DNA of 64,000 bases from Litoreibacter ascidiaceicola. Lineage in GTDB: Bacteria; Pseudomonadota; Alphaproteobacteria; Rhodobacterales; Rhodobacteraceae. The translations under genes were made by a program, and so were the position numbers. The notes below the pieces were generated by a model. That model worked only from the letters and a program-made list of their open reading frames with translations, did not search any database and was not told where the DNA came from. Positions 571-59,387 of the stretch are shown piece by piece. Position 1 is the first letter of the stretch; every line of letters begins with the position of its first letter. The stretch is from the NCBI RefSeq assembly GCF_900129235.1, contig NZ_FQUV01000004.1, positions 124,001-188,000 of the forward strand, read 5' to 3'.

Positions 571-2586
571 ATGCACGCATATCGCAGCCATACCTGTGCC
601 GACCTGACCGCCGCCAATGTGGGCGACAACGTTCGCCTTTCGGGCTGGGTGCATCGGGTGCGCGACCACGGGGGCATCCTCTTTATCGACCTGCGCGACC
701 ATTATGGCGTGACGCAAGTGTTGGCCGACCCTGACAGCCCTGTGTTCAAGGACGTCGAGAAGGTGCGCTCCGAATGGTGTATCCGCATTGACGGCAATGT
801 TATGGCGCGCGCGCCGGAACTGGTGAACTCGAAACTGCCGACGGGCGAGGTCGAGGTATTCATCCGCGACATCGAAGTTCTGGGGGCGTCTGACGAGTTG
901 CCTTTGATGGTGTTTGGCGATCAGGAATACCCCGAAGAGACGCGGCTGAAATACCGCTTTCTGGACCTGCGCCGCGAGAAGTTGCAGCGCAACATGATCC
1001 TGCGCTCGGACGTTGTGGCGTCGATGCGCAAGCGCATGTGGGATCTGGAGTTCAAGGAATTCCAGACGCCGATCATCACCGCGTCCTCGCCTGAGGGTGC
1101 GCGCGACTTCCTCGTGCCGTCACGCTTGCATCCGGGCAAGTTCTACGCGCTGCCGCAAGCGCCGCAGCAGTTCAAGCAACTGCTGATGGTGTCGGGCTTT
1201 GACAAGTATTTCCAGATCGCGCCGTGTTTTCGTGACGAAGACCCGCGTGCCGACCGCTCGCCCACGGACTTCTACCAGCTTGACCTTGAGATGAGCTTTG
1301 TCGAGCAGCAGGACGTGTTCGACACGATCCAGCCGGTGATCCAAGGCGTGTTCGAGGAGTTCGGCGGCGGCCGCAAGGTGGACAGCGAATGGGAGCAGAT
1401 TTCCTACAAGGACGCGGCACTTTGGTACGGCACTGACAAGCCCGACCTGCGCAACCCGATCAAGATGCAGGTGGTGTCGGAGCATTTTAAAGGCTCCGGC
1501 TTTGCGATCTTTGCCAAGATTTTGGAGCAGGACGGAACTGAAATCCGCGCCATTCCTGCGCCCAAAGGTGGCTCGCGCAAGTTCTGTGACCGGATGAATG
1601 CGTTTGCGCAGAAGGAAGGGTTGCCGGGGATGGGGTATATCTTCTGGCGGAAGCGTGAGGGTTTTGAGCCAAGTAAGTTTGAAGAATCTATGGGGACGCT
1701 GTTCGGTCTTGGTGGTTCAATCTACTCTTTGATTAAAGGCGACGACGAAGGATTCAAAAAGTTTGAGCAGGTTATTGAAGCTTTTTCACCACCCACGCCC
1801 ATCTCCGACGAAAACAAAGCTGAGATAATTGAACGAATTCAACGCTGCCGTGAAAGAGAAGATCTCGAACGCGCAGAGTTTCTTTTTGATGCTTACTTTG
1901 GAGAATGGGAAGCCGCTGGTCCGCTGGCGAAGAACATCGGCCCGGAACGCACCGAAGCGATCCGCCAGCAGCTTGGTCTTGGCGTGGGCGACGCGGCGTT
2001 CTTCCTGGGCGGCAAGCCGTCCTCGTTCGAAGCCGTCGCGGGTCGTGCGCGTGTCGAGATTGGCAACGAGCTGAAACTGACCGATCTGGACCGCTTTGCC
2101 TTCGCGTGGATCGTGGACTTCCCGATGTATGAAGCGCACGAGGAAACCGGCAAGATCGACTTCTCGCACAACCCGTTCTCGATGCCCCAAGGTGGCATGG
2201 CGGCGCTGCAAGGCAACCCGCTGGACGTGCTGGGTTACCAGTATGACCTTGCTTGCAACGGCTACGAGCTAATCTCGGGGGCTATCCGGAACCACAAGCC
2301 GGAGATCATGTTCAAGGCGTTCGAGTTGGCAGGGTACGGCGAAGAGGAAGTGCGCAAGCGCTTCGGTGGTATGGTTAATGCGTTCAAATACGGCGCACCG
2401 CCCCACGGCGGCTGTGCTGCGGGGATCGACCGCATCGTGATGCTGCTGGCCGACGAGGCCAATATTCGCGAGGTGATCCTGTTCCCGATGAACCAACGCG
2501 CCGAAGATTTGATGATGAACGCCCCAAGCGAGCCGATGTCGGATCAGCTGATGGAATTGGGCCTGCGGGTTATTCCACAGGATTAG
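571..2586 (+). CDS. aspS: Aspartate--tRNA ligase, with an unusual in-frame insertion
   Basis: Class IIb aminoacyl-tRNA synthetase charging tRNA(Asp), possibly also tRNA(Asn). The ATG at 571 is chosen because the protein then opens with the usual N-terminal OB-fold ([12 protein letters not shown], about residues 22-33). Motif 2 (FRDED) and motif 3 ([13 protein letters not shown]) of the catalytic core are intact. The protein is 671 residues, whereas bacterial AspRS is usually about 590. The excess is one block, about residues 361-446, inside the GAD domain: it follows GYIFWR and is followed by [13 protein letters not shown], sequences I expect close together in Rhodobacterales. The reading frame stays open throughout. 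Enzyme identity is certain; the role of the extra block is unknown. Confidence 0.97.
1651..1910 (+). other. Low-GC in-frame insert inside the aspS GAD domain
   Basis: My hand count gives 115 G/C in 260 nt (44%), against 39 of 60 (65%) just downstream at 1921-1980. The insert encodes about 86 residues, acidic and lysine-rich in the second half (for example [19 protein letters not shown]), with codons such as AAA, TTT, ATA and AGA that are scarce in neighbouring genes. The hexamer GGAAGC occurs at 1649-1654 and 1908-1913, near both edges, which may be chance. I recognise no domain in it. Confidence 0.7.
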
Positions 2587-57836: not shown

Positions 57837-59387
57837 ATGGCCAAAGTCAAAAAGCAGCCCCGCCCCAAGGCCGTCACCCCGAAAGGGTTTCGCGACTACT
57901 TCGGCGCGGAGGTCACTCAGCGAAAGGCGATGCTGGACAAGATATCTGAAGTCTATCAGCTCTACGGGTTCGAGGCGCTGGAAAGCAGTGCTGTCGAAAC
58001 CGTGGAGGCACTTGGTAAGTTTTTGCCAGACGTGGATCGCCCCAACGAGGGTGTGTTTGCATGGCAAGAAGATGATGACGCCGATTGGCTGGCGCTCCGC
58101 TACGATCTGACGGCCCCGCTGGCCCGCGTTTATGCGCAATACCGCAACGATTTGCCGACGCCGTACCGCCGCTACGCGATGGGTCCGGTTTGGCGCAACG
58201 AGAAGCCCGGCCCGGGGCGGTTCCGGCAGTTTTATCAGTGTGATGCGGATACCGTTGGGGCGTCTTCCGTCGCAGCCGATGCCGAGATTTGCGCGATGCT
58301 GGCTGATACGTTGGAAGCCGTCGGCATCCCGCGTGGTGACTATATTGTGCGGGTGAATAACCGCAAGGTTTTGAACGGGGTTTTGGAGAGCATCGGCCTT
58401 AGTGACGACTTGATCGTAAACCCGCGGCCGATGACCTTGGATGAAGCGGCGCTGGCGCTTTATTCCGATATGGTCAAACGGAACATTGAGTCAATTTCTC
58501 GCTTGGATGTCCTCCGGCAGATCGACAAATTTGACAAGGTTGGTCGAGAAGGCGTTAAGCAACTACTCACCGCTGGAAGAAAAGATGATTCAGGAGCATT
58601 TATTGATGGTGTCGGCCTGCCCGATGAAGCGGCGGAAAGAGTTATTTCCTTTCTTACTGCCAAATCTAGCAATTCAGCTGAAACTCTCGAGAATTTAAAG
58701 GTTGCAGTGGGATCATCTGCCATCGGACGTGAGGGTGTTGCTGAACTTGAGATGATCTCAGAGTTACTCGCCTACCAAGGCTACGAAGCTGACCGTATCG
58801 TCATCGACCCATCAGTCGTCCGTGGCCTCGGTTACTACACCGGCCCCGTCTACGAGGCCGAACTCACCTTCGAAATCAACGACGAGAAAGGCCGCCCGCG
58901 CCAATTCGGCTCGGTCGCTGGCGGTGGGCGCTATGACGACCTGGTCAAGCGCTTCACGGGCCAAGAGGTGCCCGCAACGGGGGTCTCCATCGGTGTCGAC
59001 CGGTTGCTGGCGGCGTTGCAAGCCAAAGGCCGCATGACCAAGGAAACCGTCGGCCCCGTCATTGTCACGGTCATGGATCGCGACCGCATGGCACATTACC
59101 AAAGCATCGTCGGTGAGCTGCGCGCGGCGGGTATCCGTGCGGAGGTCTATTTGGGCAACCCCAAAAACTTTGGCAACCAGTTGAAATACGCGGACAAGCG
59201 CAACGCGCCATTGGCGATCATCGAAGGCTCGGACGAGGCGGAGCGGGGCGTGGTGCAGGTCAAGGACCTTGTGCTGGGCGCAGAGATCGCCAAGACCGCG
59301 TCGCTTGAGGAATGGAAAGGCCAGCCTGCACAAAGTGAAGTGAAGCGCAGCGAGCTGGTCGCTGTGATCAAGAAAATGCTGGGCTGA
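57837..59387 (+). CDS. hisS: Histidine--tRNA ligase
   Basis: A 516-residue class II synthetase charging tRNA(His). The start [11 protein letters not shown] and motif 2 ([20 protein letters not shown]) are present; the histidine-site loops [14 protein letters not shown] and [17 protein letters not shown] also fit, and the C-terminal anticodon domain is complete. Residues about 209-315 are encoded by DNA of about 47% GC, unlike the rest. Alphaproteobacterial HisRS has a homologous insertion here as I recall, so this is probably a normal domain with unusual composition. hisZ follows after 2 nt. Confidence 0.96.
58461..58780 (+). other. Low-GC segment inside hisS
   Basis: My hand count gives 149 G/C in 320 nt (47%), against 39 of 60 (65%) just after at 58801-58860. 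Codons such as AGA, TTA and GAT are used as in the aspS insert and not as in the neighbouring genes. The reading frame is intact. Unlike aspS, the encoded segment (for example [19 protein letters not shown]) looks homologous to a normal alphaproteobacterial HisRS region. Confidence 0.65.

Follow-up and report, generated by a model that had tools for sequence, protein, structure and literature searches.

In the window, a 64,000-nucleotide stretch of DNA from Litoreibacter ascidiaceicola, the aspartyl-tRNA synthetase (AspRS) gene aspS carries a long in-frame insert of low G+C content. Our analysis indicates that Rhodobacteraceae aspS has one site, at the tip of a β-hairpin in the GAD domain, at which short, acidic modules of helical fold would be gained, exchanged, and lost between relatives; the window insert would be one long member of that set. 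There is good support for the anatomy of the insert, for the status of the site as a hot spot, and for repeated gain or loss, and exchange of inserts between relatives is likely. We give the combined statement, in which the modules also alter the outer face of the enzyme and may shield it, only tentatively and at rather less than even confidence.

The insert and its host enzyme

The following features define the insert and its surroundings.

571-2586, + strand: aspS, bacterial-type aspartyl-tRNA synthetase, 671 amino acids (open reading frame, ATG start, Pfam)
1627-1650, + strand: upstream junction GMGYIFWR, in the predicted strand of residues 353 to 361; conserved in relatives, strand in the model
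1651-1911, + strand: in-frame insert, an 87-residue loop where relatives have the 7 residues DQGEGME; net charge -9, with a helical bundle predicted
1912-1947, + strand: downstream junction of 12 residues, the return strand of the hairpin and the start of the next helix; conserved in relatives and seen in the model

The extra block proper occupies 1651-1908 (residues 361 to 446) and reaches 1911 when the following Glu is included. AspRS is 671 residues long in the window versus 591 in an insert-free relative (L004), a net gain of 80, and the nearest insert-free relatives have the 7 residues DQGEGME at the loop versus 87 here. The first-pass annotation had described an in-frame, low-G+C insert in a 671-residue AspRS, after GYIFWR and before a stretch of 13 residues, and this description was confirmed. 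Its G+C value of 44% for the block also held (0.44 to 0.45), but the 65% quoted for the downstream DNA fits just positions 1901 to 2100 (0.655); the 600 bases downstream have 0.61 and the 900 bases upstream 0.59. The different codon use that it reported is reflected in a third-position G+C of 0.39 in the insert versus 0.78 in the flanks.

Pfam matched AspRS to tRNA-synt_2 (3.8e-108) and the OB-fold (1.5e-15). GAD was matched below threshold (0.00091; 19.9 bits versus a cut-off of 23.4) in two stretches, the best of which, residues 314 to 358, lies just before the insert; the insert therefore splits the GAD domain. With an OB-fold, a class II core, and a GAD (insertion) domain, the last of these below its cut-off, the host protein is an ordinary bacterial AspRS. 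In the ten best PDB sequence matches, solved AspRS with chains of 580 to 620 residues, the first alignment ends at query residues 325 to 362, at or before the insert.

Modeling, which the first pass had proposed, predicted a helical bundle. In the AspRS model the bundle stands between strands 353-361 and 446-449, with predicted helices at 367-378, 384-389, 392-405, 413-428, and 432-443 (block-mean pLDDT 70 to 90), and a helix at 451-456 follows the second strand; the model of the full enzyme is of poor quality (mean pLDDT 58) except in the N-terminal and GAD regions, most of the catalytic core being poorly modeled. Modeled alone, the insert formed four helices (mean pLDDT 74). No convincing structural relative was found among solved or viral structures, a result that excludes no fold.

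AsnRS did not exceed the TIGR00457 cut-off in any of 25 genomes of the family (5 genera), and did so in 1 of 41 genomes in all; the weak TIGR00457 match in each of the 25 was taken as AspRS itself. Because of this, and because an indirect tRNA-Asn charging pathway is described in PMC9976931, the window AspRS is probably non-discriminating: it would also charge tRNA-Asn and rely on an amidotransferase of the GatCAB kind. PMC3532385 runs against this reading, as it ties the non-discriminating type of AspRS to a lack of GAD. PDB entry 4wj4, whose title names a Pseudomonas non-discriminating AspRS, matched the model along with GAD-bearing AspRS.

Inserts at the same site in relatives

We searched the genus of the window (21 genomes) and obtained 20 readable loops, all but that of G012. 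The long loops, in the window, G006, and G010, are three different sequences at one site. In a DNA tree of aspS with the inserts excised, the window falls in a seven-row clade (100/99), and G010 pairs with the insert-free G020 (99/96); the same tree leaves G006 unplaced, with 11 of its 20 inner branches open. The first-pass annotation would have regarded the block as ancestral had most close relatives carried it, but 17 of the 20 loops are short and the six clade-mates of the window are all insert-free. A gain accounts more simply for the window and G010, losses being also possible; by parsimony, the window insert would have been gained in its own lineage. It is not a one-genome artefact, because other genomes hold other inserts at the same site.

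To survey the family, we searched 394 genomes from 393 genera, close to one per genus, with an insert-free query of 190 residues, and 382 matched. A second search covered 93 genomes that had given two matches with a weak best E-value, and another 49 whose matches were weaker or odd. All loops of the 93 were examined, and 92 have an insert of at least 20 residues (G048 has none); 40 of the 49 were fetched and 39 examined, yielding one insert (G201) and 38 short loops. Counting the window, at least 94 of the 382 matching genomes carry an insert at this AspRS site, a lower bound in that mid-ranking matches were partly listed and most single matches lie outside the loop count. A common form of 32 to 33 residues (EKTADAVAQELG.. 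or KQSPDSIAQERG..), with two subtypes and in different genera (e.g., L032), accounts for 44 of the 94; by eye we take it to resemble a helix-turn-helix. The other 50 inserts are divergent and 38 to 95 residues long. The first pass did not recognize the site as a hot spot, occupied across the family by many inserts unrelated to one another.

Two further genera were examined in depth. Among 21 genomes of the genus of G392, 18 have the 32-residue form, 2 a short loop, and 1 a long one. The genus of G043 includes Paracoccus records (the inserts L329 and L176 are identical, as are L354 and L177), and 118 of its 121 genomes matched. We examined 70 of these: 57 loops are short, and the 13 long ones (including that of G043 itself, L138) make up seven sequence groups. 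In the other 48 the aspS open reading frames have at most 611 residues, so long inserts are unlikely there. In one genome of this genus (G766), two copies of aspS (L374 and L375), both with short loops, are separated by about 6 kb.

Class-wide, 286 of 289 genomes matched, and 281 matches lie outside the family; among the 150 rows listed, a split AspRS match, read from the match pattern only, was found in G578 alone. The same hairpin carries an insert in a metagenome bin titled Afipia (L187) and in two IMG/VR contigs, L391 and L393 (AspRS 53% and 44% identical to the query). Another contig filed as viral (L392:895-1584) encodes an AspRS with about 40 extra residues at a different GAD position, after GPIAKNLGSD. 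Several of the viral-contig records with AspRS genes (L388-L397) have bacterial-looking neighbors and may be host DNA.

The site is also singular within the enzyme. In 149 full-length AspRS, 69 insertions of at least 5 residues lie at L004 positions 360-369 and 5 lie elsewhere. HisRS (57837-59387), a second tRNA synthetase, gave more than one match (two or three) in 128 of the 197 family genomes that matched, and among the matches listed its C-terminal pieces start at residues 217-225; full-span HisRS rows among the matches listed keep their length and have no 20-residue insert. This is a fast-changing stretch. Since the HisRS result speaks in part against relying on split matches alone, AspRS inserts were counted from the loop sequence and not from splits, with the rest of AspRS as control.

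Diversity, selection, and origin of the inserts

We collected 70 distinct inserts of at least 36 residues (one from the Afipia bin). Single linkage at E < 1e-4 within this set gave 24 sequence groups, with sizes of 37, 4, 3, 3, 2, 2, and 2 plus 17 singletons. The inserts of the largest group, that of the window included, have a common C-terminal helix pair, which in many ends near AYFG. In a tree of 228 AspRS rows with inserts excised, the insert must have appeared or disappeared at least 58 times, versus a mean of 75 and a minimum of 66 in 200 shuffles; the tree is a fast one of a conserved protein with partial rows, so that 58 is inflated and the genus-level cases are firmer. Because 58 lies below the shuffled values, part of the pattern is inherited, with much scatter.

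The composition of the inserts sets them apart from their flanks. Among 52 inserts that do not belong to the 32-33-residue form, third-position G+C averaged 0.497, versus 0.821 in the flanks, and was the lower of the two in 51; for the 44 inserts of that form the averages were 0.676 and 0.734, with the insert lower in 34. By codon position, the G+C of 60 long inserts was 0.64, 0.37, and 0.49, versus 0.64, 0.46, and 0.82 in the flanks. Third positions of long inserts follow the host weakly (slope 0.22, p 0.03), and the deficit affects 17 of 18 amino acids, Tyr being the exception. The coding frame is open in all 60 long inserts, and each other frame contains stops in 43 to 60 of them. From their codons, the long inserts look like real coding sequences that have so far not taken up host codon use. 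All 70 are net negative (mean -5.8; the window insert, -9), compared with 65% of 71-residue segments taken from 150 AspRS with their inserts excised, and 61 of the 70 lack Cys.

To assess selection and exchange, we compared 11 chosen homologous pairs, in which synonymous divergence is often near saturation. Nonsynonymous divergence was lower than synonymous in all 11 (ratio 0.05 to 0.53), so these pairs are under selection at the protein level. One cross-genus pair, L139 and L183 (the latter from Sedimentitalea xiamensis), shares 94% of its insert DNA versus 87% and 81% in the flanks, with the step in identity at the edges of the insert and a synonymous divergence of 0.21 in the insert versus 0.40. 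This pair alone looks like a cassette transfer; the remaining 10 have inserts that have diverged further than their flanks. No identity step was seen around the window insert against its nearest relatives, a comparison that gives no tract length. The 32-residue form has a synonymous divergence about equal to that of its flanks and looks old; class-A inserts, considered for tract decay, have a synonymous identity close to that of their flanks.

We then searched for a source of the window insert. The first-pass annotation had suggested foreign DNA or recombination with a distant aspS; a module of foreign composition in a GAD loop is what we found, but a donor is not among our matches, the best relative by E-value being 37% identical. 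Against 389 relatives, its credible matches besides itself were five aspS inserts with 30 to 45% identity, and these limited searches of the segment alone gave no credible relative outside aspS. A search for further copies in its own genome returned one protein-level match at E ≤ 10. The insert had no match in plasmids and only matches at E 8 to 9 in phages, and three inserts had no viral-contig relatives. The AspRS found in phage records (all 16 listed) and in plasmid records (20 of 53 listed) match a short-loop query over about the query's own length. Against Pfam and PADLOC the window insert gave no match, and the best values were 0.0072 with PHROG and 0.11 for its profile versus PDB sequences; for nine or ten other inserts, the best were 0.0025 with Pfam (below cut-off) and 0.0015 with PHROG (a minor tail protein, L108).

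A profile of 33 related inserts was run against 149 genomes. Among the 40 matches listed, 11 had E ≤ 1.2e-7, all at aspS. The remaining 29 (E 0.001 or worse) were rejected as relatives and taken as chance; 19 of these loci (L256-L274) include many occurrences of one recurrent coiled-coil protein or its antisense frame and a few other genes. In addition, about residues 27-76 of the insert (residues 27-74 correspond to window 1729-1872) matched an antisense frame in seven genomes at 35 to 40% identity (E 0.0008 to 0.009), a match present on realignment in four of the seven loci (L338, L341, L344, and L345). The sense frame opposite it is, we assume, ParC. An origin from the parC antisense strand was rejected because a search of 389 genomes should yield about 4 chance matches at such an E-value and the seven genomes represent one gene.

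The DNA was also examined for signs of mobility. Edge repeats in the 70 inserts were not above control (mean longest shared word 4.20 versus 4.35, SD 0.10). Positions 1550-2010 contain one 15-nucleotide direct pair (80%) and one 11-nucleotide inverted pair, neither at the two ends of the insert; the inverted arms (1641-1651 and 1961-1971) lie almost wholly in the aspS flanks and are mostly present in insert-free relatives, and no inverted repeat has both arms inside the insert. Positions 1500-2050 gave no Rfam match at E ≤ 1, the frame being open, and the RNA fold of the insert is not unusual (z-score +1.14). Of the 60 named loci compared, 7 have long inserts. The neighbor-gene associations ranking first and second were antisense frames inside aspS, and no neighbor was clearly linked to long inserts, the next association having p 0.04 uncorrected.

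Interpretation and comparison with known systems

According to our model, the window insert would be translated as part of AspRS, is predicted to stand off the enzyme as a small bundle, and probably arrived by DNA exchange from an unsampled relative. Less certainly, it may change the outer face of a probably non-discriminating AspRS and serve as a replaceable shield from a factor docking on the hairpin, such as a phage protein, toxin, or bacteriocin. We favor a shield because one position hosts modules unrelated to each other and the enzyme core is left intact; it is a guess all the same, unlikely in absolute terms and level with or just above neutrality. A more specific version, resembling antigenic variation, in which a mobile antagonist docks on the hairpin tip and is escaped through unrelated acidic modules drawn from a common pool that has a base composition of its own, is rather improbable. 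No antagonist or partner of the insert was found, and family and fold searches gave no binding clue. Among the matches listed from open PMC papers, judged by titles and the starts of abstracts, no report of an exchangeable AspRS insert was found.

The main rival is a neutral, tolerated site, an explanation we consider possible but unlikely. An exposed hairpin tip that touches nothing would keep any foldable, soluble, in-frame DNA, which then drifts and is lost, with selection against misfolding only. Mere solubility would suit the acidic composition and the scarcity of Cys, and the occasional inserts at this hairpin in other bacteria (L187, L391, and L393) and the many short loops in the Paracoccus genus agree with it. 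Neutrality fits less well with the uneven frequency, at least 94 of 382 in the family versus the single split match among those listed from 281 elsewhere in the class, and with the few insertions at other AspRS sites; a random supply would also leave groups common to several genera unexplained. Vertical inheritance from the family ancestor with very fast divergence and many losses is a poor candidate. It would account for the 37 of 70 long inserts in one loose single-linkage group, many sharing the helix pair near AYFG, for the widespread 32-residue form with its flank-like synonymous divergence, and for inserts that outpace their flanks in 10 of 11 pairs. Yet the window and G010 nest in insert-free clades, the L139/L183 inserts are more alike than their flanks, third-position G+C has not shifted to host values, and 17 of the 24 groups are singletons with no detected similarity.

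Equally doubtful is a partner adapter, in which the insert of each lineage would adjust how AspRS contacts GatCAB, tRNA-Asn, or a regulator. An AspRS that should also serve tRNA-Asn, given the AsnRS result in the 25 family genomes and the pathway in PMC9976931, and the protein-level selection on inserts both accord with such tuning; close relatives in one genus with unrelated inserts or none do not, and net negative charge argues against RNA contact, including the tRNA contact raised by the first-pass annotation. Least probable is a small DNA element inserting precisely into aspS. The constant site, the sharp edges in the L139/L183 pair, and a base composition nearly independent of the host would be expected of such an element, but edge repeats do not exceed control, the sole inverted pair lies almost wholly in the flanks and is mostly kept without the insert, Rfam and RNA folding gave nothing, the insert is single copy in its genome, and the inserts tried have no credible plasmid, phage, or viral-contig relatives. 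The selfish insertion proposed in the first pass thus gained no positive support, with no strong match outside aspS in 149 genomes.

At a single loop of an essential enzyme, close species carry modules that are unrelated to one another and have not adopted host codon use; this suggests that the surface there is contested or can be freely exchanged. If the modules are selected, they point to an antagonist or regulator of AspRS; if they are neutral, they amount to a natural collection of inserts able to fold at a tolerant site, which protein engineering could draw on. In both cases, aspS length and the insert region are unsafe as phylogenetic markers.

Several known systems invite comparison. 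In-frame insertion into bacterial protein genes is described for the Rickettsia palindromic elements in PMC10969869. Those are families of elements spread over many genes, whereas here many non-palindromic inserts occupy one gene; the palindrome or strong hairpin and the several copies per genome that mark such elements or MITEs are absent from the window insert. Inteins, too, are in-frame inserts in essential enzymes. An intein has Cys or Ser first and Asn last, with Cys, Ser, or Thr next; the AspRS insert starts with KREG, ends with GEWE, and is followed by Ala, and it differs from inteins further in being short and in having no Pfam match. Positions 1500-2050 likewise match no self-splicing intron RNA family. 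Lineage-specific insertions in enzymes of this kind are commonly stable within a lineage and are usually taken as stable lineage marks. Those of RNA polymerase and aminoacyl-tRNA synthetases are, like the modules described here, in-frame extra domains in a core enzyme (PMC13114784); in contrast to them, close species here have unrelated modules or none at one AspRS site.
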